The translations under genes and the position numbers were made by a program. The notes beneath the pieces are model-generated. The model did not search any database and was not told where the DNA came from. It saw only the letters and a program-made list of their open reading frames with translations. Shown here piece by piece: positions 27,216-46,025 of a DNA stretch of 62,128 nt; position 1 is the first letter of the stretch, and every line of letters starts with the position of its first letter. This stretch comes from Lachnospiraceae bacterium (lineage in GTDB: Bacteria; Bacillota; Clostridia; Lachnospirales; Lachnospiraceae), in NCBI GenBank assembly GCA_015057445.1, contig SVEI01000009.1:1-62128 (forward strand). The letters are read 5' to 3'.

Positions 27216-29096
27216 GTGGAGAAAAGGGTATTAAAAAGGAGAACTTGGAGGGAGATTATCAGCGTGCTACTTGCAGTAGTTATGGTATGCACTCTAATGC
27301 CTGGTGTAAAGGCTAGTGCAGCAGCTGATAACGCAACAAAGGATAGTGAGGGGTTAATAAATTATCGTACTCATGTCCAAACCCATGGTTGGCAGGATTT
27401 TAAATGTGATGGTCAGATGTCAGGAACTTCAGGGGAAGCTAAACGTCTTGAGTGTATTGAAATTAAGCTTGGAGACACAGGCTATGAAGGTGGAGTAATG
27501 TATCGTACTCATGTGCAAAGCTTTGGCTGGCAGGACTGGGTGACTAATGGTGAAATGTCAGGAACCTTCGGTATGGGAAAGCGTCTTGAGGGAATTGAGA
27601 TAAGCTTGTATGGAGAGATATCTGAGCACTATGATATAGTATATAGAGTTCATGTTCAGTCTTTTGGCTGGCAGGACTGGGTGAGCAATGGTGTAATGGC
27701 AGGAACTTCCGGTAAGGCAAAAAGACTTGAGGGAATTGAAATTAAGCTTGTTAAGAAGGAAAAGAAGGGTACATCAGCTATTACATATAGAACTCACGTA
27801 CAAAGCTATGGCTGGCAGGATTTTAAATGTGATGGAGAGATGTCAGGAACTTCTGGTAAGGCAAAAAGACTTGAAGGAATTCAGATTAAACTCAATACCA
27901 ACGAATATGGTGGAGGTATAAAATATTCTACCCACGTTCAGACCTACGGTTGGCAGGATTACAGATTTAATGGAGCAATGTCAGGAACTTCTGGTGAGGC
28001 CAAGAGACTTGAAGCAATTAAGATATCTCTATATGGTGATATAGCTAAATACTATGACGTATACTATAGGGTTCATGTACAATCTCACGGCTGGCAGGAC
28101 TGGGTGTGTAATGATGAGCTTGCAGGAACCTTAGGAGAAGCCAAAAGATTAGAGGGAATTGAAATTAAGCTTGTTAAGAAGGAAGGTGTTAAGCCTGAAA
28201 ATCCAGAGAAGAATAATCCACTTAAGTTAGAGCTTAGCGGTAAGACAGAGGATACATACACTATTAAGGAGGATTGTTACGTAGAGGGTAATGACGTGGT
28301 AATTTACCTTCCAAAGGGTATTACCGTTAAGGGTGATATGTTAAAGGTTGTTGAGAAGATAATGTCAGATTTGTGTGAGACCACAGGGCTTAATTTCAAG
28401 CAGAATTATCCTATAGATGACCCTATGGAATGTAGAGACTTATATTATGAGGAAGGATATTTTGCTAATATTAACAAGGATGCTGAGAAGGTTAATCTGA
28501 TATTCACTAACGAAGGCAGCGGGTCAGCTTGGGCTTCAGATCATAACGCAGTTGTAGATATTATGCATTTTGAGGGAGATTATCAGGTTTTATATCATGA
28601 GCTTTCTCACGTAATTCAGCTAAGAAATGGTGCTGATTTAGGTAGTGTTATGGATGAGGGCTATGCTACATACACCGCTTATATTTGTCACATGGAGCAT
28701 AATATACCTGGATGGAGTGCTGCACAGTATTTCTGGCCGGTAGAGGATGTGGCTAAACCACTTATTGAAGGTGGAGAGGATGCATTTAGCATGGTATATG
28801 ACGTAAAGGATACAAACTATCAGTATGGCTTTAGATTTGTTCTTTACTTAAGTGAGACTTATGGTGAGGACATCTATTATAAGATTATGGATGAAGCCGA
28901 AAAGCGTGACCTTCAATGCTCTTGGAATCCAGATAATGAGAAGGAGGATAAGGCAAGAAATAGTGATATGCTTATAGAGATAATTAAGTCTCAAACTTCA
29001 GAGGATGTATTTGAAGATTTTGCAAAGTGGTATGCAAATGAATGGGATAAGATAGTAGAGAAGAAGATGGCAGAGATAGAGGCCATGAGTAATTAA
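27216..29096 (+). CDS. Secreted ChW-repeat protein with a HExxH zinc-peptidase-like domain
   Basis: A GTG start follows GAGGAGAAA. A basic N-terminus and hydrophobic stretch end at KASAAADN, a likely signal peptidase site. Six ChW repeats (clostridial hydrophobic repeats with conserved Trp, YRTHVQSxGWQDW...SGTSGxAKRLEGIEI) start near residues 48, 94, 141, 188, 235 and 282. The C-terminal domain has HELSH (His461-Glu462-His465) and, about 20 residues on, MDEGYATY, whose Glu fits the third ligand of a gluzincin-type metallopeptidase. No sortase signal is present. ChW repeats are thought to bind surfaces or polymers, so this may be a targeted exoprotease. It lies 62 bases after the anti-sigma gene and is probably in that regulon. 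Confidence 0.87.
   Translation: MEKRVLKRRTWREIISVLLAVVMVCTLMPGVKASAAADNATKDSEGLINYRTHVQTHGWQDFKCDGQMSGTSGEAKRLECIEIKLGDTGYEGGVMYRTHVQSFGWQDWVTNGEMSGTFGMGKRLEGIEISLYGEISEHYDIVYRVHVQSFGWQDWVSNGVMAGTSGKAKRLEGIEIKLVKKEKKGTSAITYRTHVQSYGWQDFKCDGEMSGTSGKAKRLEGIQIKLNTNEYGGGIKYSTHVQTYGWQDYRFNGAMSGTSGEAKRLEAIKISLYGDIAKYYDVYYRVHVQSHGWQDWVCNDELAGTLGEAKRLEGIEIKLVKKEGVKPENPEKNNPLKLELSGKTEDTYTIKEDCYVEGNDVVIYLPKGITVKGDMLKVVEKIMSDLCETTGLNFKQNYPIDDPMECRDLYYEEGYFANINKDAEKVNLIFTNEGSGSAWASDHNAVVDIMHFEGDYQVLYHELSHVIQLRNGADLGSVMDEGYATYTAYICHMEHNIPGWSAAQYFWPVEDVAKPLIEGGEDAFSMVYDVKDTNYQYGFRFVLYLSETYGEDIYYKIMDEAEKRDLQCSWNPDNEKEDKARNSDMLIEIIKSQTSEDVFEDFAKWYANEWDKIVEKKMAEIEAMSN
27358..28176 (+). repeat. Six ChW coding repeats, 141-base period, built from a duplicated three-repeat block
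   Basis: Repeat starts fall at 27358, 27496, 27637, 27778, 27919 and 28060. Repeat 1 resembles 4 (QDFKCDG), 2 resembles 5 (ISLYG followed by a YD linker) and 3 resembles 6 (VYYRVHVQS/IVYRVHVQS and IKLVKKE). A block of about 420 bases was therefore duplicated. Confidence 0.85.
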
Positions 29097-31950: not shown

Positions 31951-31998
31951 TCAATATTCCTCCATCCTATGTAAAATATCCGTTAAAAACCTACTTAT

Positions 31999-32027
31999 AT
32001 GATATCACTGAAAAATAGGTTTAGCAA
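31999..32027 (-). promoter_or_regulatory. Candidate promoter of the hybrid kinase
   Basis: On the minus strand TTGCTA, a 17-base spacer and TATCAT form a plausible sigma-A promoter about 50 bases before the kinase start. Confidence 0.5.
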
Positions 32028-32066
32028 GCTGATACAGTTAAGGAAATTAGATGAATAGGAGTATTA

Positions 32067-32095
32067 TGGATACAAATATCAAGTTGTGATATAAT
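32067..32095 (+). promoter_or_regulatory. Promoter of the Hsp90/polyamine operon
   Basis: TGGATA, a 17-base spacer and a perfect TATAAT (32090-32095) with an extended -10 TG one base before it. It lies about 34 bases before the first start codon of the operon. Confidence 0.65.
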
Positions 32096-32128
32096 ATAGG
32101 ATATTTATGCTTTATGAGGAGAAAAATA

Positions 32129-33916
32129 ATGGGAGATTATAGGTTCAAGGTAAATTTAGGTGGAATGATTGAAATACTATCAGATCATTTGTATAGCAGT
32201 CCTGATGTATATATTAGAGAACTGTTGCAAAATGGAGTTGACGCCATAGTGGCAAGAGAAAAGGTGGATAATAGTTACAAGAAGGAACACTTGGGGAAAA
32301 TTTTGGTGACAGTGAAAGAAAAACAAAGAGTGAGCTTTAAAGATAACGGAATAGGACTGACAAAGGAAGAAATACATAGATTTCTAGCTGTTATAGGGGA
32401 ATCATCAAAAAAAGATTTAGAGACAGGCAAAATCATGTCGGACTACATAGGACGTTTTGGGATAGGATTATTATCATGTTTTATGGTAAGTGATGAGATT
32501 TGTATTAAAACAAGATCCATTCAAGATAACAGAGGATTTATATGGGTTGGAAAACCTGATGGCACATATACTTTAGAGGAATTAGAAGAGGAAATAAGTG
32601 TTGGAACAGAGATAATATTGGAGGCAAAAAAAGACAGTGAAAGCTATTTCGAATTTGATAACATAGAGTCTTTGATTTTGCATTATGGTCTCATATTACC
32701 ATATCCAATACTAATGGATAGTGGAAATATAAAAAAGAGAACCAATCCAGTTTCATTGCCTTGGTTAGACAAGTCTGTAGATAAGAATCAGTTGTTGATA
32801 TTTGGACAGATGATGTTTAATACACCTTTTATGGATTGTATAAAGCTTCATTCTGAAGCTGGAAATATTGATGGAGTAGCTTACATCCTGCCTTATTCCG
32901 TACAGGCATCAACTAAGCAGAGTCACTTGGTGTATTTAAAAAATATGCTTTTGACAGAAAAAGGTCAGGGGATACTTCCAGATTGGGCTGTGTTTGTAAA
33001 ATGTATAATCAATGCTAAAGATCTTCGTCCGGTTGCATCAAGAGAGGGTTTTTTCGAGGATGATACTCTAAAAAAAGCAAGGGAAGAGCTTGGAAACTGT
33101 ATTGCTGAGCATTTAAGAAAAATGTCCAAGTCAAATCCATCAGCTTTTCGTGATTTTTTGGATATACATGAATTAGTTGTAAAAAGTATGGCCATAGAGG
33201 ATGATGAGCTTTTTAAGCTTTTTATAGATAATTTGACATTTGAGACTACTAAGGGAGCATTGTCTGGCTTAGAACTTAGAATGACAAAGGAACCCTTGCT
33301 TTATTGTGGTATGAATGAATATAGGCAAATATCTCAGGTGTTTGTGGCACAAGGAAGATTGCTAATTAATTGTGGCTATGTTTATTCCTATGAACTGTTA
33401 AGAAAAATGCAGGAATTTTTCCCTGTGGTTGTGCAACCAGTAGATAACTATGAGGTTGGCGAACTGCTTAATGACGTGAGTTTGGATGAGGCAGAAAAAG
33501 CTGTGGATTTTCTGGATATAGCAGAAAAGACGTTGGAATCATTTGGTTGTAGTGTGGAGATGAAACAGTTTATACCAGCCAATCTTCCGGCATTTTACTA
33601 TATTGATAAGGACGCAATGCTATCTAGAGAGATTGACAATGCTATGGAAGAATCAGAGGATTTGTTTGCTGAAATGCTTGGTAATTTCAAGGAAGAGATA
33701 AAGGAAAAATGTGTAGCAACATTGTATTTCAATATGAGAAATCCTTTGGTAAAAAAGATGGTTGAGCATACAGATAAAGACTCCCTAGAAGATATAATTA
33801 TCATTATTTATGTTCAAACTTTGCTCATAGGAGGTTTTACCCTTAAAAACAATGAGCTAGGAATGATGAATGACAGATTACTTTCTGTACTTGAAGGAGG
33901 TTTGATTAATGGATAG
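32129..33916 (+). CDS. Divergent Hsp90-family (HtpG-like) chaperone ATPase
   Basis: The start is placed at ATG 32129, since the GAGGAG site lies just upstream of it, inside the longer reading frame from 32114. The 595-residue protein has the GHKL ATP-binding fold of Hsp90: ELLQNGVDAI (metal Asn and nearby Asp), FKDNGIGLTKEE, the lid IGRFGIGLLSCFMVSDE and a GTEIIL motif. The middle domain has RPVASREGFF, matching the catalytic Arg loop of HtpG (SRE). It is slightly shorter than HtpG and diverges strongly in the C-terminal third; the last residues do not form MEEVD. It overlaps the next gene by 8 bases. It is probably a specialised chaperone and not the housekeeping HtpG. Confidence 0.85.
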   Translation: MGDYRFKVNLGGMIEILSDHLYSSPDVYIRELLQNGVDAIVAREKVDNSYKKEHLGKILVTVKEKQRVSFKDNGIGLTKEEIHRFLAVIGESSKKDLETGKIMSDYIGRFGIGLLSCFMVSDEICIKTRSIQDNRGFIWVGKPDGTYTLEELEEEISVGTEIILEAKKDSESYFEFDNIESLILHYGLILPYPILMDSGNIKKRTNPVSLPWLDKSVDKNQLLIFGQMMFNTPFMDCIKLHSEAGNIDGVAYILPYSVQASTKQSHLVYLKNMLLTEKGQGILPDWAVFVKCIINAKDLRPVASREGFFEDDTLKKAREELGNCIAEHLRKMSKSNPSAFRDFLDIHELVVKSMAIEDDELFKLFIDNLTFETTKGALSGLELRMTKEPLLYCGMNEYRQISQVFVAQGRLLINCGYVYSYELLRKMQEFFPVVVQPVDNYEVGELLNDVSLDEAEKAVDFLDIAEKTLESFGCSVEMKQFIPANLPAFYYIDKDAMLSREIDNAMEESEDLFAEMLGNFKEEIKEKCVATLYFNMRNPLVKKMVEHTDKDSLEDIIIIIYVQTLLIGGFTLKNNELGMMNDRLLSVLEGGLING

Positions 33917-35018
33917 CGAGTTGTTAGAGCTAAGAAAGCTGCATTTTCAAGTAGAAAATTCTCCATATTGTAAAGAAAAGCAAGATATGTGCAGACGTGG
34001 ATGGGAGTTGGCGGATAAACTAGATAATTATGAAGAACAGTATTACTTTAGACGTGAATATATAACTGATGCCACATTTTATGGCGATGTAATGGAGATA
34101 TATGTGGTATTTCCTGTTATGCTTAGCAAGCATGACGAATATGTAAAAAAACATGGACGGGACGCCCGTGTTAGAAATGTTTTGTGGACATATAAATGGG
34201 TTATTGAAAACGCAAAATTCTTTTATCAAATTTCTCAGAAGCAGTTTGTTCATTTTTTTGAGGATTTCAAGAGAAGATGTATAGAAAATGGTTTTTCCTT
34301 GCGAACTTATTATCAATACGGTTATGAATTTTATCAAAAAATCGATTCAGAAAAAGCTAGAGAGTACTATGAACAATTCTTAAAACAAAGAAGGGATTCC
34401 TTAAGTGATTGTCATGCATGTGAGAGAAATGAAGAGGTGGATTACTTGTTATCAATTCATATGTATGATGAGGCCATGGAAAAAGCAAAGGATTTATTTT
34501 CTAGAAGATTGACTTGTACAGAAATACCAGATGCCACATATGGAAAATTCCTAAAGTATTATAATCAAGAGATATTAGCAGGAAGGATGGAAATAAACGA
34601 GGAAATCCAGCATATAGTGGAACAGTTAAGATACTCCATTAGAACAAAGAAACTATGTTTTGAGTATATAGGAGAGATGTTTTTTATTTACAGTATTTCT
34701 GATAAGGCAAAGGCTCTTGCCTGGTTTAAAATGTATTGCTGTGAAGCAGAAGTTATGCGCAATCCGGAATACAAGTTTTATTTTTCAGTTGCGGCGATGC
34801 ATTTTTTCGGTCAAATGAAAAATAGGAAAAGCTATCGTATAAAGTTAAGTCCGGGATTTTCGCAGTATAGGGAGGATGGAAACTATTCTCCTAACGCTCT
34901 GTATGGCTATTACCAATCAATTGCTTATGATGTTGCAACGAAGATGGACAATAGAAATGAAGCAAGTTTTTATATGGACTTCGTAAAACTTGTGGAAAGT
35001 TACTTGCAGGATAATTAG
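33909..35018 (+). CDS. Helical-repeat (TPR-like) protein, partner gene of the Hsp90-like ATPase
   Basis: I do not recognise a named family. The 369 residues are almost wholly predicted helical, rich in Tyr, Phe and charged residues, with helix pairs of about 34-40 residues (ENGFSLRTYYQYGYEFYQ, SEKAREYYEQFLKQ, YDEAMEKAKDLFSRRL, DKAKALAWFKMYCC) that suggest a TPR-like solenoid. There is no signal peptide or membrane helix. A cluster CHACERNEEVDY near residue 165 could bind metal but has only two Cys. GAAGGAGG precedes the ATG, which lies inside the Hsp90-like gene. The overlap suggests translational coupling and a complex between the two products. Confidence 0.65.
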   Translation: MDSELLELRKLHFQVENSPYCKEKQDMCRRGWELADKLDNYEEQYYFRREYITDATFYGDVMEIYVVFPVMLSKHDEYVKKHGRDARVRNVLWTYKWVIENAKFFYQISQKQFVHFFEDFKRRCIENGFSLRTYYQYGYEFYQKIDSEKAREYYEQFLKQRRDSLSDCHACERNEEVDYLLSIHMYDEAMEKAKDLFSRRLTCTEIPDATYGKFLKYYNQEILAGRMEINEEIQHIVEQLRYSIRTKKLCFEYIGEMFFIYSISDKAKALAWFKMYCCEAEVMRNPEYKFYFSVAAMHFFGQMKNRKSYRIKLSPGFSQYREDGNYSPNALYGYYQSIAYDVATKMDNRNEASFYMDFVKLVESYLQDN

Positions 35019-35033
35019 AAAAAAGGACAAGAT

Positions 35034-36293
35034 ATGAGACTAGTACCAATCCCCACAAGTGAATATGATGAGTATCGTCTGAAATTGATGTTTGACTGCT
35101 ACAAATGGGATCCACAGTTTTTAGATAATAATACTGTGGCTAAGTATGCATTGGTTATTACCCAAGAGGAACATAAACAGCTTGCCAGATTAACAGTGGC
35201 ATTGGATAAAGAAACAAGAGAAGCAGAGCAATTTTTGAATTCTAATCAACATTTGGCAGTTCCATTAAAACTTACTAAGCAGCTTTTATGTGATATAAAG
35301 AAAATGAGCAATTATGACCAAGAGAAACACATAAGACTTACCAGATATGACTTTCATCCAGTATCAGACTTAGAAGGTGGATGGGCTATAAGTGAGGTAA
35401 ATAGTGATGTGCCGGGTGGATTCGCAGAGGCAAGCCTTATGCCACTTGCCGCTATAGAAAGCATATACAAAGCACAGGAAAAGAGTTCCATTATGGAGAA
35501 GGAATCTTATCATATAGTAAGCTTTGGGGATGTGATGATTGAAAGCGTTAAGAAAAAGGTTAAAGCTGGCGGTAGAATTATGATGGTGCATTGTACCTGT
35601 TACAGTGATGATAGGCAGGTTATGCAGTATTTAGGAGACAGGTTAGAGGCTGAAGGCTACGAAATAATTTATGGTGCTGTTGAGCATGTGAATTTTAAAG
35701 ATAATAAAGCTTACTCTGCTATGGATGGCAATGAGGGGCAGTTAGATGCAGTATTTCGTTTTACGCCTCTAGAATGGTTTAAGGACATAAAGCCTAAGAG
35801 ATGGCGTGGATATTTTGATACGGAGACAGTATCTTGTAACCATCCAATATCCATATACGCCCAGACAAAAAGGTTCCCGTTGGTGTGGGATGTGCTTGAG
35901 GACCACGGTATTAGTATGTCTACTTGGAGAAGCTTATTGCCGGAAACCGTAGACGTAAAGCGGATAGTGGGGCGTGAGAACTACATATATAAACCAGCTT
36001 ACGGAAGAGTAGGAGATGGAATATCCATTAGAGAAGCTCTTGATATAAAGGAATATGAGAAAATAATGAAGGATGTGAGTAGGCATCCATCCAGGTATGT
36101 TGCACAGAAAAAATTTACAAGCATACCTTTAAAGGGAGAAAATGGAGAGGAATATCATGTGTGTCTCGGCTCCTATGCCATAGACGGACTTCACGGTGGT
36201 TATTATGCCAGAATAAGCAGTACACCTCGTATAGATTCTAATGCCGCGGATATACCTGTGCTTATAGAAGGAGGCGACTCATATGACAGCTAA
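35034..36293 (+). CDS. Glutathionylspermidine-synthase-like ATP-grasp amide ligase
   Basis: This 419-residue protein resembles the C-terminal synthetase domain of glutathionylspermidine synthase, a circularly permuted ATP-grasp fold. Visible are RYDFHPVSDLEGGWAISEVN, DVPGGFAEASLMP (substrate site), a central segment from MVHCTC to LGDRLEAEGYE and the ATP-binding NYIYKPAYGRVGDGISI. Such enzymes use ATP to form an amide between a carboxylate, usually a peptide, and a polyamine or amino acid amine. No amidase domain is present. The product is probably a polyamine or amino acid conjugate; with a homospermidine synthase in the same operon, homospermidine is the obvious amine. The substrate is inference. 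Confidence 0.8.
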   Translation: MRLVPIPTSEYDEYRLKLMFDCYKWDPQFLDNNTVAKYALVITQEEHKQLARLTVALDKETREAEQFLNSNQHLAVPLKLTKQLLCDIKKMSNYDQEKHIRLTRYDFHPVSDLEGGWAISEVNSDVPGGFAEASLMPLAAIESIYKAQEKSSIMEKESYHIVSFGDVMIESVKKKVKAGGRIMMVHCTCYSDDRQVMQYLGDRLEAEGYEIIYGAVEHVNFKDNKAYSAMDGNEGQLDAVFRFTPLEWFKDIKPKRWRGYFDTETVSCNHPISIYAQTKRFPLVWDVLEDHGISMSTWRSLLPETVDVKRIVGRENYIYKPAYGRVGDGISIREALDIKEYEKIMKDVSRHPSRYVAQKKFTSIPLKGENGEEYHVCLGSYAIDGLHGGYYARISSTPRIDSNAADIPVLIEGGDSYDS

Positions 36294-36987
36294 GGAAGTA
36301 TATAAAATATGGGCACCTGTAGGTAAGAGGTGGGTAGACTGGGTAAGACCAGTTCCTTTTGTTACCATAGGTCATTATTCTAAAAGTTATGGGGTAATTC
36401 TTCAGCCACCAGCTTCCATTCAATTTCTAGAGAAACAGGAAGAAAACCAGCTAAAAACTATATTAGGAATTAATGGATGGGAAAAGTCTTATCTAGAAAG
36501 AACTGCAGTAATAGTTGATATGTGTGGTGGAGAAAGTGTTAGCTATGGAGTTGCCCTTACAGACTATGGTTTTAGACCAATTCCTGTATTTAACGGCACT
36601 ATAGAACAACAGGGAGCAAGGGCTACAGTGGATAACCAGTCAGTTGGTATGGCCTTAGAGCTTATGGCAAAAGAGCTTCTTGAGAAGGAAATAGCTGATG
36701 ATGCCAGACCTGCATTTTTGCTGGATAGAAATAGATTAAACAGGTATAAGCTTGATGACTCTGTGTATGATAATAGCTGGGATGTGTACCCGCAGGACCT
36801 GCCATCACCTAAGTTTTTTTTAGAAAATAGTATAGAAAACATCTTGGTGATTGGTGGTAAAAAAATATCTAAAGATATAAAAAAAATTCTGGTTGATCAC
36901 CAGAAGAAAGGGCTAAAAATATTCCATACAGATGGATATGAGATGCCTAGGCAGCAGTTGGTCTGGAAACTGCCAAGCTGGGATTAA
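36283..36987 (+). CDS. Unrecognised protein coupled to the ATP-grasp ligase
   Basis: I do not recognise this 234-residue protein. It begins MTAKEVYKIWAPVGKRWVDW, has no signal peptide or membrane helix and contains VIVDMCGGESVSYGVALTDYG, which could be a nucleotide- or substrate-binding loop, and a short Rossmann-like strand ENILVIGGKKISKDIKKIL near the C-terminus. The ATG lies 11 bases inside the ligase gene behind AAGGAGG, so the two products are made together. A second subunit of the ligase, or a binding protein for its acceptor, is the simplest idea. Confidence 0.55.
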   Translation: MTAKEVYKIWAPVGKRWVDWVRPVPFVTIGHYSKSYGVILQPPASIQFLEKQEENQLKTILGINGWEKSYLERTAVIVDMCGGESVSYGVALTDYGFRPIPVFNGTIEQQGARATVDNQSVGMALELMAKELLEKEIADDARPAFLLDRNRLNRYKLDDSVYDNSWDVYPQDLPSPKFFLENSIENILVIGGKKISKDIKKILVDHQKKGLKIFHTDGYEMPRQQLVWKLPSWD

Positions 36988-37070
36988 ATGAGGATAAAGA
37001 AAGTATAAATAATATAATAAGTAAAACAGCTAAACAGCATAATCATTAAAGTAAAAAAGAGGAAAAAATA

Positions 37071-38543
37071 TTGATAAAATTCGAAGGTCGTATAGTCCAA
37101 TTTGGATTCGGCGCAGTGGGTAAAAGCTTCTATGAAAAACTACCCCAGGAATTACAATTTAATGAGAACAACTACTATGTTATAACTAGGGAAGAGATAG
37201 AATTAATTGCATATGTAAATCTAGGAGGCATAGTAGCTAATTTTATCACCGCAGAGATAACCAGAGACAATTTTAAGGAAATCTTTGGCACTTATCTAAG
37301 AGAGGGTGATTTGCTTATTGATTTTGCAGATACAGTAGGAACTAGAGATATCTGTGAGTGGTGTGCTAAGGAAAATATTATGTATATAAATACAGGTGAA
37401 GCAGATTGGCCTGATCACTGGTATTCAATATTTGAAGAGCATGATAAGAAAATAGATTTAAAGAATATATTTGCCACTAATCAAGACAAGAACAAATATC
37501 CAATAGTTCTTCATCACGGCAATAATCCAGGGTTAGTGTCCCATTTTGTGCGAGCAGCTTTGGGGTACATAGTAACAACTCAATTTAAAAGGGATAAAGA
37601 ATTAAAGAGACTTCTTAAAGAGCAAAGATTTAACCATATAGCTTGTTATTTAGGGTTAAGACAGATACATGTCAGTGATATAGATTTGCAGAAGGTAAGG
37701 GGGAGCTTTGATGAAAAGCTTCTAGTTAATACCTGGTGTACGGATTCCTTCTGGTTTGAAATGTTAAGTGAGGCAACCCTTGATGTGGGAACCTTTGAAG
37801 AAGTGGATTTTGAAGATCAGTGCAACATGTACCACAAGGAAAAAGGTTACATGGAATTTAAAGCTTTGGCAGTGGATAAAAGATGTGCCACATATTATCC
37901 AGAAGGAGTCTTTGAGGGCCACTTGGTGCCACATGAGGAGACTATTTCTATAGCAAAAAGCCTGGAAGTTTCTCAGGATGGAAGGGTTATATATCGTCCC
38001 AGTGTTGCATTTATATACAAACCATGTGATTATGCCAGTGAATTCCTTAAGAAATCAAAGGTAAATGAATATCCTAACCCTGACCCATCAAGGCCTATTG
38101 ACTGTGAGAATGAAAAAGGGATTTCTATAGTAAGGGGATATATATATCCAGAGAATGTGGAGATGTTGTATGAAGATAAAATAGAATCCGGGACAGAATA
38201 TGTAGGTGTATTTCTTATGGGAGAAAGATTTGATCCAGTGTGGGTAGGCAATCGCATAGAGTTACCATTCCTATCAAAGGGAAAATCCAACCACCAGTGG
38301 CAGACTCCAACCATAACACCAGTAGCTATGTCAGCCTTATCAGCAGTATGCTGGATGCTTAAGAATAAAGATAAAGGTGGGATATACTTTCCTGAGGAAA
38401 TCCCAGATTATAAGGGGATAATAAAAACCGCAGAAAAGTATATCTCCAAAACCATATACAAAACCTTCACCAAAGATGATGTAGAAAGAGAACTCAAAGT
38501 AAACTTTGAAAACCTGCAAGTGAAGGATATATTTAGAAGTTAA
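37071..38543 (+). CDS. hss: Homospermidine synthase (saccharopine dehydrogenase-like fold)
   Basis: The 490-residue protein has an N-terminal NAD-binding Rossmann fold (IVQFGFGAVGKSFYEKL) and the family signatures INTGEADWPDHWY, LHHGNNPGLVSHFVRAAL and FLMGERFDPVWVGN. Homospermidine synthase uses NAD to move an aminobutyl group from putrescine (or spermidine) to putrescine, giving sym-homospermidine. The start is TTG at 37071 after AAGAGGAAAA. It closes the operon 83 bases after the previous gene and converges on the DUF2207 gene, where the two stop codons overlap. The length matches bacterial Hss. The alternative, a related carboxyspermidine-type dehydrogenase, is less likely given the HGNNPG motif. 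Confidence 0.88.
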   Translation: MIKFEGRIVQFGFGAVGKSFYEKLPQELQFNENNYYVITREEIELIAYVNLGGIVANFITAEITRDNFKEIFGTYLREGDLLIDFADTVGTRDICEWCAKENIMYINTGEADWPDHWYSIFEEHDKKIDLKNIFATNQDKNKYPIVLHHGNNPGLVSHFVRAALGYIVTTQFKRDKELKRLLKEQRFNHIACYLGLRQIHVSDIDLQKVRGSFDEKLLVNTWCTDSFWFEMLSEATLDVGTFEEVDFEDQCNMYHKEKGYMEFKALAVDKRCATYYPEGVFEGHLVPHEETISIAKSLEVSQDGRVIYRPSVAFIYKPCDYASEFLKKSKVNEYPNPDPSRPIDCENEKGISIVRGYIYPENVEMLYEDKIESGTEYVGVFLMGERFDPVWVGNRIELPFLSKGKSNHQWQTPTITPVAMSALSAVCWMLKNKDKGGIYFPEEIPDYKGIIKTAEKYISKTIYKTFTKDDVERELKVNFENLQVKDIFRS

Positions 38544-40609
38544 CTTCCGCCACCGCCGTAGCTTCCGAAGCTACGACCGCCACCAGTATATCCTCTACTA
38601 CTAGCTGTGGCCTTATGAATTCTTGAACCACTTCGAACAGCGCGTCCTATACCGCGGCTACTTCTGTGAATTCGGCCCGTTCTAATATATGTGTTATTAA
38701 ACATGCCATAATCGTAGTAATAATCCATAGTAGCATTTGTTGCCTCAGGGAACTTAACTCCAAGAGCTTCAGTAACCTTAGTAGGAATGCCAAAGGCTGT
38801 TGCGTAGATGAAGAATCTTTCCCATACAGGCATATTTGCCACATTGGATTCTGACATAATATGGTCACTTTTAAGGTAGTTGTAAAGTCCGCGCCATTTA
38901 GCGTATTCTGTCTCACCTGCCTGGGTAAGAAGAACATAATTACCTGCTGTCATATAAAGGTAAATGGAGCATACGAGGCATGTGATTCCTAGTATAGTAT
39001 AGGAGCCAAAGGCTAAGTCCAATCTAGTAAAGCTTGAAATAAGGTTTACTATAGTTAATAGAATAATTCCCCATTTTCTATAGGATTTTGCAGATTTGAG
39101 AAGCTGGTCTTTAAGCTCTGTAAAATCCGCTTTTTGTATGTAACCACCGTTGACACCAGTGTTGGTAATGGCCTTCTTGATATTTTCTTCAAAGGTTCCG
39201 GTATACTCATAATCCTGAGAAACTCTTCTCTGGAAAGTGCTCATAAGAATCTGATTATTACTAGCGTGACGTACCAGAAGGTTGTAATATAAGATCTCAC
39301 TTTCAGTAAGAGGTTCCGCAGGCATAATGGATTCTTCCTGACCCTGAGCAGGATTCTTAATTGTAATCATAGCATCATTTGTGCCATATTCAGATATCTC
39401 AACATAATCCTTTCTAGCCAAGCTAAGAAGTAGTGCAGAATAGATGCCTGAATCGTCTTTAGGCTTGCTATCTTTGGAGAAAATTAGGGCTGCTGCAAAA
39501 TTAGGATCTAAGTCGCTAGGAATTCCTGTGTAGAATTCTGGAATTTCTGCTGGTTCATAGAATATGTGCTTAGTATGCATACGTTTTTTTGTATTAAAGG
39601 TTTTAAATAGTATGCATGCTGCGATTATAAACAATATAGCAAAAATTATGATTTTAAGTGTATTATAGTTGCCTGGTTTATTATGTTCTAAACGGGCATC
39701 ATATCTAATTTCATTTAAAGCATAGTCAGAAGTATAATCGTTATGCAGTGCACTATCTGTTAATATATGTTTATCTTGGTCGTATGCTACAAGCTCAAAC
39801 TCTAGATACTGGTTATATGCCTTAAATTGAAGATCCTCTTCATCTAGGTCTATAGCGAAGGTGTGATATCCAGGATGAAGAGTAGATGATTCATGTACGG
39901 AAAAGCCATTATTGTTTGTGCCATAGGTGTAATATTCGTAGTTATCAGTACTAGGCATATCTTCATCAGGAATTAGTATCTCAGCCTTATATGATTCTAG
40001 ATCTGTAACAGGCATCTCTCCATAAAGTAACAGATAAAGGTCAGAGCAATCTTTATATTTAAGTCCCACGTGGTTTATCTCATAGCATATCACAAATGTA
40101 ACCTCATCCCTATAGATTCCGTCTACATAGAAGAATAAAGCTTCATAGCGATCGCTAGCTTTGTTGTAAGGTCCCGGACTGTGGTACCAGGTTCCGGCAA
40201 GTTCTTCCACCTCGTAATTATTCCATTCATAGCTACTGCATTCTTCAAGTTCCATCAGACTTCCGTCATCCATAACCTGATGTACAGAAAGAACATCGTA
40301 GTCAAGTCTAAGTCCGTCCACCTCCTGCTCAATTAGGTCTCTCCACAGCTCGTAGCACAAGTCATCTTTGCTGGATTGGTGAACATCAAAAGTGACACGT
40401 TCTACAACCATAGCCTTTGTTCCGCGAGATGAATCGTCGTCATATATTATCTGAGCTTCCACATCTGTAAGCTTTTGATAGTCCCAAGGACTTAGGTCAA
40501 TATAATCAAACAAGTATCCATATTGACCTGCGAAGATAGCTATAATTGGGAGTAAGAAGCACAGTGCAAAAAGACTAAAATATAATGTTAGACATCCTTT
40601 AGGGTTCAT
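38540..40609 (-). CDS. DUF2207 membrane protein with Gly/Ser-rich tail
   Basis: This 689-residue protein has an N-terminal helix (about 8-30), a long outside beta-rich domain (about 40-330), a helix at about 345-362 and a cytoplasmic region with winged-helix-like features (residues 380-510). Two further helices lie near 525-575, and the C-terminus is rich in Gly, Ser and Arg, ending in SFGSYGGGGS. This is the standard architecture of DUF2207, a family of unknown function widespread in Gram-positive bacteria. AGGAGG precedes the ATG. It is the third gene of a minus-strand operon with DUF1538 and the P-II-like gene. Its stop codon overlaps that of hss. Confidence 0.85.
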   Translation of the reverse strand: MNPKGCLTLYFSLFALCFLLPIIAIFAGQYGYLFDYIDLSPWDYQKLTDVEAQIIYDDDSSRGTKAMVVERVTFDVHQSSKDDLCYELWRDLIEQEVDGLRLDYDVLSVHQVMDDGSLMELEECSSYEWNNYEVEELAGTWYHSPGPYNKASDRYEALFFYVDGIYRDEVTFVICYEINHVGLKYKDCSDLYLLLYGEMPVTDLESYKAEILIPDEDMPSTDNYEYYTYGTNNNGFSVHESSTLHPGYHTFAIDLDEEDLQFKAYNQYLEFELVAYDQDKHILTDSALHNDYTSDYALNEIRYDARLEHNKPGNYNTLKIIIFAILFIIAACILFKTFNTKKRMHTKHIFYEPAEIPEFYTGIPSDLDPNFAAALIFSKDSKPKDDSGIYSALLLSLARKDYVEISEYGTNDAMITIKNPAQGQEESIMPAEPLTESEILYYNLLVRHASNNQILMSTFQRRVSQDYEYTGTFEENIKKAITNTGVNGGYIQKADFTELKDQLLKSAKSYRKWGIILLTIVNLISSFTRLDLAFGSYTILGITCLVCSIYLYMTAGNYVLLTQAGETEYAKWRGLYNYLKSDHIMSESNVANMPVWERFFIYATAFGIPTKVTEALGVKFPEATNATMDYYYDYGMFNNTYIRTGRIHRSSRGIGRAVRSGSRIHKATASSRGYTGGGRSFGSYGGGGS

Positions 40610-40638: not shown

Positions 40639-41316
40639 TTAATCTTCCAAAAGTCTAAGTCCAGCAGTATCAGTTACGGGAAGAGAGAAACATATAGCCT
40701 TAGCTTTGGTGTTAAGTCCTGCTTCTTCCATAATAGCTTGCATAATTGGGTTCTTCTGTCCGGTTTTCACAACTATATATATAAGTTCCTTTTCTTGAGC
40801 TAAAGAAACTCCCATGAATTTTTCGGCAACAGCCATACCGGTTCCCTTTGCATGGATAACGGTACCACCATAAGCCCCAGCCTTTCTTGCTGCATCCATA
40901 ATAAGGTTTGTATATCCTAGCTCTGAGATTACTACAATCAAATCGTGGTCTGTATTCTTCAATGTGGATTCCTCCTTTTTCTCATACTTATCATTTTCTA
41001 TCAGAAACTGTAGTGCTTTTCTTCCGCCTATACTACTTAGGGGAATTGTAAATGCAACTCCACCACCAGGGGCATCAATTTTAAGCACCTTTTCCAGTTG
41101 TTTTTTTACAGTAAGCCATTTGTCTTCTTCTATGATAGCAGTTACAACTGTTTTTTCCTTGGATTCAAGACCAAGCATATCCATAGTTTCATTAGAAACT
41201 GTACCGTACCCCAGGGAAAGAAACATGACATTAAGGTTGTTTTCCTGATACAGCTTAGCGTAGCTTGATGCGATTTTTCTATCCACTATGGTGGTCATCA
41301 TATATAAATCTCCCAT
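40639..41316 (-). CDS. Duplicated P-II-like signal protein
   Basis: This 225-residue protein contains two P-II (GlnB)-like ferredoxin folds. The C-terminal copy (about 112-215) is clearer: LIVVISELGYTNLIMDAARKAGAYGGTVIHAKGT, a T-loop-position segment and a KELIYIVVKTGQKNPIMQAI strand-helix. The N-terminal copy (about 5-105) is more diverged. P-II proteins bind ATP/ADP, 2-oxoglutarate or other small ligands and plug or tune transporters. It lies directly after DUF1538, a combination known in Firmicutes, so it most likely regulates that transporter. GGAGG precedes the ATG. Confidence 0.8.
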   Translation of the reverse strand: MGDLYMMTTIVDRKIASSYAKLYQENNLNVMFLSLGYGTVSNETMDMLGLESKEKTVVTAIIEEDKWLTVKKQLEKVLKIDAPGGGVAFTIPLSSIGGRKALQFLIENDKYEKKEESTLKNTDHDLIVVISELGYTNLIMDAARKAGAYGGTVIHAKGTGMAVAEKFMGVSLAQEKELIYIVVKTGQKNPIMQAIMEEAGLNTKAKAICFSLPVTDTAGLRLLED

Positions 41317-41364
41317 ATATCCTCCTTTTATAATTCAAACAATATAATCTTATGGGCGAAAGGT

Positions 41365-42915
41365 TTACAACTCAATGATTTCCATATCGCCGTAAGAGGC
41401 AAGTGCTTCACGGTCTGCCTGACTGGCAAGCTCTTTGTGAAGCTTGCTGTCCTTAATTCTATATATAAGTCCCATAATCTGAATAGCTATAAGGGGTGTC
41501 ATTGCAACCATAGAAACTATACCAAAGGCGTCAGCTACTATGTTGCCACCCACTGCCTGGCAGGCGCCCATAGCAAATGGAAGCAAAAATGTAGCAGTCA
41601 TAGGTCCTGATGCAACTCCACCAGAGTCGAATGCTATAGCCGTGAATATTTTAGGTACGAAGAAAGTAAGCGCTAAAGCGATAAAATATCCTGGCACAAG
41701 AAGCCACATTATGGAAATTCCTGTAAGAACTCTAGTCATGGCAAGACCAACAGATGCGGCTACACCAAGAGACAGGGAAGTCCCCATGGCTTTGGCTGAT
41801 ATGGCTCCATCTGTAAGTTCTTCAACCTGCTTGGTAAGGACAAATACAGCAGGTTCGGCTTTAACAATAAAGTAACCGATTAACATACCTATAGGAATAA
41901 TAATCCATTTAATATCAAGGGCGGCAATAGTTGCTCCAAGGTAGTTTCCTGCAGGCATAAATCCTACATTTACCCCTGTTAAGAAAAGTACCAAACCAAT
42001 ATACGTGTAAACAATTCCTACAGTAATTTTTAAAATAGTTTTCTTATTTATATCTCGAACAATTAATTGCATAATAGTGAAGAATACAACTATAGGTAGC
42101 AGAGAAACAGCAATTTCGTGAATGTATGTAGGAATCTCTGCAGAAAATAGTTTCCAAAGGTCAACAGTATTCTCAATATCTGGAATAGAATCGGATACAT
42201 GTTCGCTAGAACCAGGCTTGTAAAGGATTCCTAAAATCATTACTGCAAGTATAGGGCCAATTGAACACATAGATACCAGACCAAAGCTGTCGTCTGCTGC
42301 ATGTTTATCGCTTCGAATAGCAGATATACCGATACCGAAGGCCATAATAAATGGAACAGTCATAGGTCCGGTTGTAACACCACCAGAGTCAAATGCCACC
42401 GATAGGAAGTCCTTTTGAACAAATGGTGTAAGTGCAAATATAATAACGTAGAATAATACAAGTAAAAGGGATAGGGGAATGCTAAGAAGCATTCGGAGTA
42501 TTGCAATTACGAGGAATAGGGCTACACCTAGTGCAACCGCAAGTATTAATGTAATATTTGGGATGGATGGTACCTGGTTAGCCAAAACCTGAAGATCTGG
42601 TTCAGATATGGTAATAACAAAACCCATTACAAAGCTGACAAAAATAACAATAAATAGATTCTTTGATTTTGTCATTATGGTACCGGTTCTCTCTCCTATA
42701 GGAGTCATAGATAACTCCACTCCAACATTAAAGAATAGCATACCTACTATAAGTAGGGTGGCACCTACCAAGAATGTCATTAAAATACTTGGGGGAATAG
42801 GTGCTATAGTAAAGCACAGTAAAAGTACTATAGCGAGAATTGGCATAACAGCCTTCATGGTCTCAGTGAATTTTTCTGAAAATTTACTTTTTAGTCTTGA
42901 ATGTGGTAGTTTCAA
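41365..42915 (-). CDS. DUF1538 membrane protein, putative transporter
   Basis: This 516-residue polytopic protein has about 12 helices and an internal duplication. Both halves contain AFDSGGVTTGPMTVPF / AFDSGGVASGPMTATF and an ADDSFGLVSM / ADAFGIVSM motif followed by a conserved hydrophobic helix. The Asp-Ser-Gly-Gly and Gly-Pro-Met repeats look like a pseudo-symmetric substrate path. The family has no proven substrate. The start is TTG with AAAGG about 11 bases upstream; no better ATG is visible. It is the first gene of the minus-strand operon and is paired with a P-II-like regulator. Confidence 0.85.
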   Translation of the reverse strand: MKLPHSRLKSKFSEKFTETMKAVMPILAIVLLLCFTIAPIPPSILMTFLVGATLLIVGMLFFNVGVELSMTPIGERTGTIMTKSKNLFIVIFVSFVMGFVITISEPDLQVLANQVPSIPNITLILAVALGVALFLVIAILRMLLSIPLSLLLVLFYVIIFALTPFVQKDFLSVAFDSGGVTTGPMTVPFIMAFGIGISAIRSDKHAADDSFGLVSMCSIGPILAVMILGILYKPGSSEHVSDSIPDIENTVDLWKLFSAEIPTYIHEIAVSLLPIVVFFTIMQLIVRDINKKTILKITVGIVYTYIGLVLFLTGVNVGFMPAGNYLGATIAALDIKWIIIPIGMLIGYFIVKAEPAVFVLTKQVEELTDGAISAKAMGTSLSLGVAASVGLAMTRVLTGISIMWLLVPGYFIALALTFFVPKIFTAIAFDSGGVASGPMTATFLLPFAMGACQAVGGNIVADAFGIVSMVAMTPLIAIQIMGLIYRIKDSKLHKELASQADREALASYGDMEIIEL

Positions 42916-43163: not shown

Positions 43164-44549
43164 ATGGGTATCATGATGCTTAAGAATGAAAAAAGTTTGA
43201 AAATTATTATAGTAGGTTGTGGAAAAGTTGGTATGACTCTAGCAGAAAGGCTTAGTCAGGAAAAGCATGATGTAACCATCATAGATACTAATCCAGATAC
43301 AGTACAGAAGGCTACAACCTTTTTTGACGTTATGGGAGTAACGGGTAATGGAGCAAGCTTTGCCATCCAGGAGGAAGCCGGAATAAAGAAGGCGGACCTT
43401 ATTATTGCGGTTACGGCATCGGACGAGCTAAATCTTTTGTGTTGTACCATCGCTCAAAAAGTAGGTGAGTGTGCTGCAATTGCTAGAGTTAGAAATCCTG
43501 ACTATAGCGATGAATTAAGCTACTTAAGAAAACAATTAGGACTTTCTTTGATTATTAATCCTGAGTTAGAGACTGCAAAGGAAATGTCTAGACTTCTTCG
43601 TTTGCCGAATGCAATAAGTATTAATTCATTTGCAAAGGGGCATGTGGAGCTGGTTAAATTCAAGCTTCCTGATGACAATATATTGGTTGGCAAGCAGATA
43701 AAAGATGTGGGTGCTTCAAATATGGGAGTTCTTATCTGTGGTATTGAGAGTGAGGGAACTCTTGATATTCCTGACGGCTCCAATGTTTTCAAGGCAGGAG
43801 ATTTAATTTCTTTTATAGCTACACCAATCAATTCTAACAAGTTTTTTAAGCACATAGGAATGAAAACAAAACATGTTAAAGACTGTATGATTGTAGGTGG
43901 TGGAAAAACCTCTTATTATCTTTCTAAGCAGCTTAGTGAGATGAATATAAGTGTGAAGCTTATTGAGAAAGACAAGGACAACTGTGAATTCCTATGTACG
44001 TTATTGCCACAAACCTTAATTATAAATGGTGATGGAGCAGATGAATCCTTGCTTTTTGAAGAGGGTATAAAAGAGACAGGCTCGTTTATTCCACTTACAG
44101 GGTTAGATGAGGAAAATATTCTTCTCACACTCTTTGCCAAAAAACATTCAAAGGCAAAGGTAATAACCAAGATTAATAGAGGGACATTTAATGATGTAAT
44201 TGATAGTTTGGATGTGGGTAGTGTTATATATCCTAGGTATATGTCTGCAGAGACAATTATTAAATATGTTCGCGGTATGCAGAACTCTATTGGAAGTAAT
44301 ATAGAGACCTTGTACCATATATTTGAAAATAGAGCAGAGGCAATAGAATTTGAGATAACAGAAGAATCCTATGTAACAGGTAAACCGCTGATGGAGCTTA
44401 ATCTCAAGACGGATTTACTTATTGCATGTATTAACCGAAAAGGGAAAATAATTATTCCACGTGGTAATGATACTATTATGCCTGGAGATACAGTTGTTAT
44501 AATAACAGCTCACACAGGATTTAAGGATGTTAGAGATATTTTAAAATAA
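43164..44549 (+). CDS. trkA: TrkA, NAD-binding regulator of the Trk potassium channel
   Basis: The 461 residues form two RCK_N-RCK_C halves. The first opens with KIIIVGCGKVGMTLAERL and IIDTNPDTVQ (NAD-binding Rossmann fold). The second opens near residue 230 with CMIVGGGKTSYYLSKQL and LIEKDKDNCEFL. Each half ends in a TrkA-C domain with the VKF.../GD(L/T)(I/V) pattern. TrkA forms a cytoplasmic ring that gates TrkH in response to nucleotides. GGAGAAA precedes the ATG and trkH follows after 15 bases. Confidence 0.95.
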   Translation: MGIMMLKNEKSLKIIIVGCGKVGMTLAERLSQEKHDVTIIDTNPDTVQKATTFFDVMGVTGNGASFAIQEEAGIKKADLIIAVTASDELNLLCCTIAQKVGECAAIARVRNPDYSDELSYLRKQLGLSLIINPELETAKEMSRLLRLPNAISINSFAKGHVELVKFKLPDDNILVGKQIKDVGASNMGVLICGIESEGTLDIPDGSNVFKAGDLISFIATPINSNKFFKHIGMKTKHVKDCMIVGGGKTSYYLSKQLSEMNISVKLIEKDKDNCEFLCTLLPQTLIINGDGADESLLFEEGIKETGSFIPLTGLDEENILLTLFAKKHSKAKVITKINRGTFNDVIDSLDVGSVIYPRYMSAETIIKYVRGMQNSIGSNIETLYHIFENRAEAIEFEITEESYVTGKPLMELNLKTDLLIACINRKGKIIIPRGNDTIMPGDTVVIITAHTGFKDVRDILK

Positions 44550-44564
44550 AGACAGGGAACTGAT

Positions 44565-46025
44565 ATGAACTATAGAGTAATAACATATATATTAGGATGG
44601 GTGTTGAATATTGAAGCTGCATTTATGTTAATGCCATTTATAGTGTCTCTTTTGTATGGGGAGTACTCTAAGGGAATGGCCTTTGTATGGGTTATGTTAG
44701 GAAGTGTAGCTATTGGAATCCTTTTAGTAATAAAAAAACCTAAGGATGCAACCTTTTATCTAAAGGAGGGTTTTGTAACCGTTGCATTAAGCTGGATAAT
44801 TATGTCTGTGGTGGGAGCTCTGCCATTTGTTATAAATGGAGACATTCCGCATTTTGTAGATGCTTTTTTTGAGACTGTTTCAGGTTTTACAACAACAGGA
44901 GCTAGTATATTATCTGATGTTGAGACTCTTGCTAGATGCAGTATGTTCTGGAGGTGTTTTACTCATTGGATAGGTGGTATGGGAGTTTTGGTATTTCTTC
45001 TTGCCATCGTGCCAATGGCAGGTGGAACCCATATGAACCTTATGAAGGCGGAAAGCCCAGGACCATCTGTAGGTAAGATAGTTCCTAAGGTTAAGAATAA
45101 CGCCATATTTTTATATGGAATTTATATTGTGATGACTATAATTATGGTGATATTTCTTTTGGCAGGAGATATGAGTTTATATGATTCATTATGTACAGCT
45201 TTTGGTACTGCTGGAACAGGTGGATTTGGATTGCACAACGATAGCTTTATGAGCCAGAGTCCTTATGTACAGTGGGTGGTAACTGTGTTTATGATTCTTT
45301 TTGGAGTGAATTTTGGAGTGTATTTCCTTTTAATAACCGGAAGATTAAAAGATGCATTTAAGCATGAGGAGGCAAGGACTTATTTTACAATAATCTTTGC
45401 GGCAGCAGCTATAATGTATATTGATTTAAGAGATATAATATCAGGTACAGGAAATGCAATAAGACACATATTCTTCCAGATTGGTTCCATAATGACAACT
45501 ACAGGATTTGCAAGTATGGACTTTGACCAATGGCCAGAGACTTCTAGGTTCGTACTGGTGTTACTTATGTTTATAGGTGCATGTGCAGGTAGTACAGGTG
45601 GTGGAATTAAGGTAGCAAGAATTATTATCCTGTTTAAGACCTTTATCAAGGAGATTATTTCTTTCTTACATCCTAGAAGTATAAAGAAGGTAAAGGTAGA
45701 GGGAAAGGTGTTAGAGCATGAGACTTTAAGAGCTACAAATGTATACTTTTTTACGTTTATGCTTATATTTACCCTATCTATGTTCCTTCTTACTTTAGAA
45801 GGAAAGGATATGGTTACAAATTTTACAGCGGTTGCTGCTACGTTAAATAACATAGGTCCAGGACTGTCATTGGTTGGACCAACGGGGAATTTTGGGTTTT
45901 TCTCAGATTTTTCAAAGCTGGTACTTAGCTTTGATATGTTAGCGGGAAGATTAGAGTTGTTCCCATTACTACTTCTTTTCTGTCCGTCAGTGTGGAAACC
46001 TAAGAAAAAAACTGCAAAAGTATAA
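44565..46025 (+). CDS. trkH: TrkH, potassium uptake channel subunit
   Basis: This 486-residue membrane protein is of the TrkH/KtrB superfamily. Four pore-loop selectivity filters are visible in order: SGFTTTGASIL, AGTGGFGLHN, TTTGFASMDF and NNIGPGLSL. Each keeps the Gly that lines the K+ filter. It forms the channel partner of the TrkA encoded just upstream. No other K+ transporter gene is near. Confidence 0.96.
   Translation: MNYRVITYILGWVLNIEAAFMLMPFIVSLLYGEYSKGMAFVWVMLGSVAIGILLVIKKPKDATFYLKEGFVTVALSWIIMSVVGALPFVINGDIPHFVDAFFETVSGFTTTGASILSDVETLARCSMFWRCFTHWIGGMGVLVFLLAIVPMAGGTHMNLMKAESPGPSVGKIVPKVKNNAIFLYGIYIVMTIIMVIFLLAGDMSLYDSLCTAFGTAGTGGFGLHNDSFMSQSPYVQWVVTVFMILFGVNFGVYFLLITGRLKDAFKHEEARTYFTIIFAAAAIMYIDLRDIISGTGNAIRHIFFQIGSIMTTTGFASMDFDQWPETSRFVLVLLMFIGACAGSTGGGIKVARIIILFKTFIKEIISFLHPRSIKKVKVEGKVLEHETLRATNVYFFTFMLIFTLSMFLLTLEGKDMVTNFTAVAATLNNIGPGLSLVGPTGNFGFFSDFSKLVLSFDMLAGRLELFPLLLLFCPSVWKPKKKTAKV

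Follow-up and report, generated by a model that had tools for sequence, protein, structure and literature searches.

A conserved ligase–DUF2207 gene unit and the predicted polyamination of protein C-terminal tails in a Lachnospiraceae bacterium

We analyzed a stretch of 62,128 nucleotides from a Lachnospiraceae bacterium (contig SVEI01000009.1 of assembly GCA_015057445.1; hereafter the window), in which five linked genes had been proposed to form one polyamine-conjugate operon with a dedicated Hsp90-like chaperone. The five open reading frames (ORFs) are real but make up two units. One is a pair encoding an HSP90 family protein and a helical-repeat protein. The other is a conserved unit that consists of a glutathionylspermidine-synthase-like ATP-grasp ligase, a 234-residue protein (U234), a homospermidine-synthase-like (HSS-like) enzyme and a convergent gene encoding a DUF2207 membrane protein, which the original prediction had omitted. 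These genes are linked, the C-terminal tail of the DUF2207 protein is conserved, and tags of the same general kind are associated with related ligases elsewhere. From these sequence patterns we lean, with modest confidence, toward a model in which the ligase attaches a polyamine to the DUF2207 tail. The unit of this gut bacterium would then be a protein-tail polyamination system and stand for a bacterial protein modification about which little is known.

The linkage was established by scanning one genome per species, which gave 64 close relatives of the window ligase (loci are cited below by our own L numbers; many come from metagenome-assembled genomes). U234 was found near 62/64 of these ligases, the HSS-like gene near 55/64 and DUF2207 near 52/64. 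When the count was restricted to the 46 loci with at least 4.5 kb of sequence after the ligase, DUF2207 was present at 45 and HSS at 40, the sole exception without DUF2207 (L070) showing only a 52-residue match. A further 19 ligase loci were taken from genomes, giving 83 other loci in total, some of which copy loci of the 64 (L121, L122, L138 and L139 are copies or near-copies). A LemA gene lies between or near the genes of the conserved unit at 12 loci. The neighborhood search suggested earlier for all five genes thus had a split outcome, as the last three genes recur together and the first two do not.

The window ligase scored 71.3 bits against the GSP_synth family (PF03738, cut-off 29.3). 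Its AF2 model (pLDDT 89.3) had YjfC (7uk6) as best match in the PDB, with E 1.8e-17 and TMq 0.70, and the matches to YjfC, then Gsp and YgiC, ranged from E 1.8e-17 to 9e-17. Seven residues (R104, D106, E121, N123, K320, R325 and R393) were invariant in 58 sequences and align with R316, D318, E330, N332, K533, R538 and R598 of E. coli Gsp, which we take to be ATP/Mg-site residues. By profile, fold and these positions, the protein is a GSP_synth family, YjfC/YgiC-like predicted peptide-polyamine ligase; RefSeq annotates both E. coli YgiC and YjfC as peptide-spermidine ligases. It resembles the E. coli ligases YjfC and YgiC, which go with the DUF1190 proteins YjfM and YgiB, in its fold (7uk6 and 7uk8 are among the top matches), in the conserved ATP/Mg-site residues and in having a neighbor gene whose product carries a Gly-rich C-terminal tag, RGG[FY]G...GG in E. 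coli and SRGYTGGGRSFGSYGGGGS at the end of the window DUF2207 protein. It differs in its sequence (~16% identical to YjfC when the structures are aligned), in the addition of U234 and the HSS-like enzyme, and in that the tagged protein is DUF2207 and not a DUF1190 lipoprotein. The bifunctional Gsp synthetase/amidase shares the synthetase fold and the seven aligned residues, but the synthetase was the only family above cut-off in the 419-residue window protein, with no match to an N-terminal amidase domain. The proposal of a polyamine operon stands, and ligases of this family are known to link polyamines to carboxylates by amide bonds. The family guesses made earlier also hold (NF010683 for the Hsp90-like protein, PF03738 for the ligase, PDB homospermidine synthases for the last enzyme), and U234, described then as unrecognised, still has no family match; its structural model is confident (pLDDT 89.3) and has no clear match in the PDB. 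At one locus (L018:9935-11893), ligase and U234 lie in one open frame of ~650 residues, possibly a natural fusion.

The window DUF2207 protein matched PF20990 with 89.8 bits and PF09972 with 25.3 bits. Hydropathy gave four membrane segments (residues 9-27, 317-335, 515-533 and 532-550), and these, with their positive flanks, would place the Arg/Gly-rich tail in the cytosol, on the same side as the ligase. Among the 56 ligase-linked DUF2207 proteins examined, 43 end in exactly GGGGRGGGGGGGGH. The remaining 13 comprise the window type (L007, L009 and L010), small variants (L018, L065, L125 and L127), a degenerate tail (L037), frameshifted tails (L046, L123 and L124) and N-terminal pieces (L031 and L039). 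Across these 43 exact tails, the 42 coding nucleotides were present in 37 different versions; therefore it is the protein and not the DNA that is conserved. Upstream of the tail, the same 43 proteins have a mean identity of 53% and a minimum of 39%. The DUF2207 proteins of the window and of L007-L010 end in SRGYTGGGRSxxSYGGGGS, and since tails of this type fall inside the linked clade in the tree, they represent a later change that replaced GGGGRGGGGGGGGH.

For comparison, 30 DUF2207_C loci were drawn from 200 Lachnospiraceae genomes. Three lie in ligase genomes and four lack a Gly tail (L106, L109, L111 and L120), and their exclusion left 23 controls. No GSP_synth match was found in the genomes of these controls (0/23), and their tails end in Trp (21) or Arg (2). 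In the tree, which included 22 controls (a short one had been left out), the 55 linked DUF2207 proteins group together in a single clade. The two Arg-ended proteins, L113 (GSR) and L118 (GFR), are sisters of the linked clade and come from genomes without GSP_synth. Two further features of the DUF2207 family were seen. The ordinary members (21/23 controls, L092-L119) have a fixed end of their own, Gly-rich with a terminal Trp. In addition, frameshifts fall inside the Gly run at L046, L123 and L124, and also at L031 and L047, and could reflect assembly error, polymorphism or phase variation.

Tags of a comparable kind accompany related ligases on other scaffolds. Beside the E. coli K-12 ligases, the ygiB product ends in SSRSMGG and the yjfM product in SRGGYGRSSSARGHWGG. 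More generally, the neighbors of YjfC relatives, be they DUF1190 or unrelated proteins, often end in a Gly/Ser tail, in many cases (R)GGFG...GG. At 19 annotated YjfC-family loci, which include those of E. coli and are not independent (two are from Rhizobium), GG or GS ends were found at 14/19 loci and in 14/22 adjacent same-strand genes, compared with 1/120 other genes. We also collected 21 plasmid loci from Proteobacteria, Actinomycetota, Deinococcus, Cyanobacteria and Bacillus, which came from 50 of the 164 records with a YjfC relative and were picked for taxonomic spread before their tails were known. Examples of neighbor tails at the plasmid loci are SRGGFGRAGGSRGFGG in Sulfitobacter, QRGGFGRSWTGGS in Nonomuraea, SRGGLTSTARGALSSGG in Deinococcus and SRGGFGGAVSSGG in Acinetobacter.

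Two sets of loci, A and B, were scored with a numeric tail rule that was fixed after the tails of both were known (at least 3 Gly and at least 8 Gly plus Ser in the last 16 residues). In set A, 17/23 loci passed, against 5/1022 other same-strand and 5/1275 opposite frames; by eye, L141, L158, L160 and L168 also end in GG or GS after GGFG, which raises the count to 21/23. Set B was derived from a Firmicute sample chosen by PF03738 alone and blind to tails, where 42/398 genomes matched and 29 new loci were obtained: 20 strong (L176-L195), 8 weak (L197-L204) and L196, which was excluded (contig edge, internal stop, DUF350-like neighbor). The strong loci passed in 16/20 cases, against 1/184 other same-strand and 1/599 opposite frames. 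A terminal GG is lacking at L176, L178, L181, L190, L191 and L193. At L194 and L195, some 410-450 bases lie between the end of the tag and the ligase frame that follows. Among background ORFs around the Clostridia loci, the rule was satisfied by 0/1087. Of the weak loci, L197-L203 represent a remote branch of GSP_synth (E 1e-8 to 1e-10) in which tags are absent, and several of them have a protein of ~380-450 residues directly upstream.

The tag is also found on U234 itself. Another set of ligases, the second group, shares 44-48% identity with the L032 protein (L136, 41%) and has the gene order DUF350-like gene, ligase, U234, with neither HSS nor DUF2207 (DUF350 was recognized at L131 by Pfam and at the others by eye), and HSS was absent from 5/5 second-group genomes searched. 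In these DUF350-type loci, U234 ends in a tag such as RNAAGGFGGRIPEPTQSSSRGRYYGFG in 9/9 complete copies, one more being cut by a contig end, versus 0/68 copies of the DUF2207 type. Taken together, these distributions suggest that the tag is portable between scaffolds, namely DUF2207, DUF1190 lipoproteins, small unrelated proteins and U234.

In the model that we favor, the HSS-like enzyme would first make homospermidine or a close relative, and genomes lacking it would use another polyamine. The ATP-grasp ligase, judging from its family chemistry, would next phosphorylate a C-terminal carboxylate and join the polyamine to it by an amide bond, as glutathionylspermidine synthetase does at the glycine end of glutathione. 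Conservation and co-occurrence point to the end of the encoded Gly/Ser(Arg)-rich tag as that carboxylate, which here would be the cytosolic tail of DUF2207. One can speculate that a polycation on the tail of a membrane protein changes its binding to anionic lipids or proteins, and that U234 is a substrate adaptor or regulator. A wider form of the model could, in our judgment, go either way: the portable Gly/Ser(Arg) tag would be the true substrate of peptide-polyamine ligases in many bacteria, a single ligase family would act on ribosomally made, membrane-linked proteins that are otherwise unrelated (DUF1190 lipoproteins, DUF2207, U234 and small orphans), the Clostridia would have added a polyamine-making enzyme of their own, and the whole would be a prokaryotic counterpart of SUMO-spermidine conjugation.

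The enzyme proposed for the first step scored 48.9 bits against Sacchrp_dh_NADP (PF03435, cut-off 25.1). It matched the solved homospermidine synthases 2ph5 (E 1.9e-37), 6y87 and 4plp, with a profile E of 8e-54, the 2ph5 match covering residues 2-335 and 360-461. Despite this sequence match to the bacterial enzymes of L. pneumophila (2ph5) and B. viridis (4plp), the window protein belongs to a distinct clade with two active-site changes. W222, H288 and N152 are invariant in 23 sequences of the clade, but D203 replaces E210 and A111 replaces E117 of the B. viridis enzyme, with E110 and D112 flanking A111. The active-site residues of B. viridis HSS are presumably W229, H296, N162, E210 and E117. 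With two acids of the active site changed, the product is uncertain, and we therefore refer to the enzyme as HSS-like and not as a proven HSS.

Several observations weigh against polyamination of the DUF2207 tail. The commonest linked tail ends in His and that of the window in Ser, and glutathione ends in Gly. The control tails are Gly-rich as well (23/23), so that it is the exact end and not Gly-richness that tracks the ligase, and Gly-richness alone means little. As the linked proteins form a single clade, the link between tail and ligase within DUF2207 may go back to one event, and frameshifted tails exist (L046, L123 and L124). The numeric rule was drawn up with the tails in view, two E. 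coli loci having prompted the idea, and there are misses: L155 and L170 in set A have no tag, L179, L186, L187 and L192 fail among the strong loci of set B, and 8/8 weak GSP_synth members fail. At L186, L187 and L192 the ligase frames have 820-870 residues and another build, and two of these frames match GSP_synth a second time. The proposed mechanism does not account for U234. The source of the amine is a further difficulty. In seven genomes with ligase and DUF2207 and without a neighboring HSS (L016, L022, L023, L037, L039, L125 and L127), no HSS was found elsewhere in the genome at E <= 1e-10 (7/7). A spermidine synthase was above cut-off in one of these, weak in one and without a match in five; if the model holds, uptake or another route must supply the polyamine in genomes lacking both enzymes. 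The L019 genome has no HSS beside the ligase and one elsewhere, and a spermidine synthase is encoded in the genome of the window. The HSS-less genomes and the two changed active-site positions make homospermidine uncertain as the joined amine, and of the homospermidine amide originally predicted it is the amide chemistry that stands.

The same data have to be weighed against other readings. The ligase could make a free homospermidine amide from a peptide or amino acid, similar to glutathionylspermidine, with the Gly-rich tails unrelated to it. This would fit a family that includes glutathionylspermidine synthetase and trypanothione synthetase, and it would fit the frequent presence of the HSS-like gene in the operon (55/64 loci). 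We regard it as unlikely, as the loci share no conserved gene that would supply a peptide or carboxylate substrate, the recurrent neighbors being DUF2207 and, at 12 loci, LemA, and as tags accompany ligases on unrelated scaffolds. YgiC, moreover, is stated in a passage of PMC12506659 to lack glutathionylspermidine synthase activity. A second alternative, which we hold to be just as improbable, is that the ligase or U234 docks on the tail or is regulated through it, and that the polyamine goes to a lipid, a cell-wall peptide or another protein. The variable tail ends (G, S or H) are odd for a substrate, and the ligase is probably cytosolic with the tail near the membrane. On the other hand, the tags consistently form the very end of the protein, as would be expected if the terminal carboxylate is used, and the described chemistry of the family is peptide-polyamine ligation. 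Finally, the HSS-like enzyme might act on the conjugate, transferring an aminobutyl group to a tail-attached polyamine as deoxyhypusine synthase does on eIF5A. The retention of W222, H288 and N152 together with the changes at E210 and E117 (whose roles we assume) could be read in this way, as could the occurrence of the ligase-tail pair without HSS, but characterized HSS relatives have a small, polyamine-sized pocket, and we give this idea very little credence.

The remaining two of the five ORFs are probably a separate two-gene unit, inserted locally upstream of the ligase. The HSP90 ORF scored 643 bits against NF010683 (cut-off 455), and the best family match of the helical protein was a sub-threshold tetratricopeptide repeat (TPR; 14 bits, cut-off 25.7). 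An HSP90 or helical gene was found at 0/83 other ligase loci searched, 61 of them with at least 3.5 kb upstream. In a sample of 200 Lachnospiraceae genomes, the HSP90 family occurs in four and the ligase in four, and both occur together only in the genome of the window. A relative of the helical protein adjoins HSP90 at L140, in a genome without the ligase. Two further genomes have proteins of 397 and 420 residues after HSP90, which are not alike by phmmer and have no Pfam family. The gap between a histidine kinase gene and the ligase (window side 31951-32113) has no insert at L009, where the kinase is directly beside the ligase, and is filled by other ORFs at L007 and L008. Since the inserts vary among near relatives and L009 lacks one, this gap is a site of insertions. 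ORF calling confirmed the tight spacing of the five same-strand ORFs (overlaps of 8 and 11 bases, gaps of 15 and 83), with the ligase starting 15 bases after the helical gene, and the start proposed earlier, 32067, is 47 bases upstream of the first ORF (32114). This spacing would suit a single five-gene operon whose HSP90 and helical products help the polyamine enzymes to fold or assemble, but the absence of the pair at all 83 other loci searched, the arrangements at L007, L008 and L009 and the existence of a similar pair without the ligase at L140 make a dedicated chaperone hardly credible. The features are listed in Table 1; the stop of the DUF2207 gene overlaps that of the HSS-like ORF by 4 bases.

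Table 1. Genes of the two units in the window, with the predicted tag of the DUF2207 protein.
Feature	Position	Strand	Remarks
HSP90 family protein NF010683	32114..33916	+	start probably 32129; inserted, outside the conserved unit
Helical-repeat protein, partner of the HSP90 gene	33909..35018	+	inserted
Predicted peptide-polyamine ligase, GSP_synth ATP-grasp, YjfC/YgiC-like, 419 residues	35034..36293	+	PF03738
U234, 234 residues, obligate partner of the ligase	36283..36987	+	fold without assignment
HSS-like enzyme, divergent clade	37071..38543	+	Sacchrp_dh_NADP PF03435; 2ph5
Predicted acceptor, a DUF2207 membrane protein; gene convergent with the operon	38540..40609	-	PF20990, PF09972
Predicted C-terminal tag SRGYTGGGRSFGSYGGGGS of the DUF2207 protein	38543..38599	-	same type at L007-L010

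The peptide-spermidine ligase activity of E. coli YgiC and YjfC was reportedly published by Pederick et al. in 2023, and amidoligases are said to have been the subject of a study by Iyer and colleagues in 2009. The ligase kind is known, and what looks new is the clostridial form with HSS, U234 and DUF2207, together with the portable tag. Four papers cite YgiC and YjfC as peptide-spermidine ligases after Pederick et al. 2023 (PMC12568646, PMC10948618, PMC12506659, PMC12270671). In passages of Ravi et al. 2024 (PMC11237479), a GSPS-like ATP-grasp is described in PspA operons alongside DUF350, DUF1190 and DUF2491, and a connection of polyamines with membrane stress is suggested. Such an operon is recognized by PspA together with a CesT/Tir-like protein, DUF350 and DUF1190. 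With these annotations and operons on record, the earlier statement that no pathway with this gene set had been described is outdated. The PspA-linked operons share with the window a GSPS-like ATP-grasp, polyamine genes and a membrane theme, but PMC11237479 contains 0 mentions of DUF2207 and those passages name no tag. The loci close to the window hold DUF2207, U234 and HSS, and no PspA was identified beside them, although PspA was not searched for. The window ligase is flanked by U234 and the helical gene, DUF350 being upstream only in the related second ligase group. As a precedent for C-terminal polyamination of proteins, excerpts of PMC12270671 describe SUMO-spermidine conjugation in yeast and mammals, where spermidine is joined to a protein through its C-terminal carboxylate, the mature protein ending in Gly-Gly. 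That system differs in being eukaryotic and in using E1 and E2, which are unrelated enzymes.

The literature searched, which did not cover the primary YgiC/YjfC study, contained no description of a conserved tag for these ligases and named no physiological substrate of YgiC or YjfC. The tag data offer one concrete substrate candidate per genome for ligases of the YgiC/YjfC type. If the polyamination model is true, C-terminal polyamination would be a widespread bacterial modification of envelope-linked proteins, and DUF1190, this DUF2207 clade and U234 would gain a role. The puzzling Hsp90 link is removed from the polyamine system.

A few other genes of the window were noted. Behind DUF2207 lie P-II-like and DUF1538 genes (40639-42915), and 7 loci have a P-II/DUF1538 pair, which in some cases precedes the ligase. 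This pair is followed in the window by the potassium-uptake genes TrkA and TrkH (43164-46025), with ORFs of the same size at L007, L009 and L010; ion-channel genes are also present in the Rhizobium and Deinococcus ligase operons. At 27216-29096, the window encodes a protein with six matches to the ChW (clostridial hydrophobic W) repeat.

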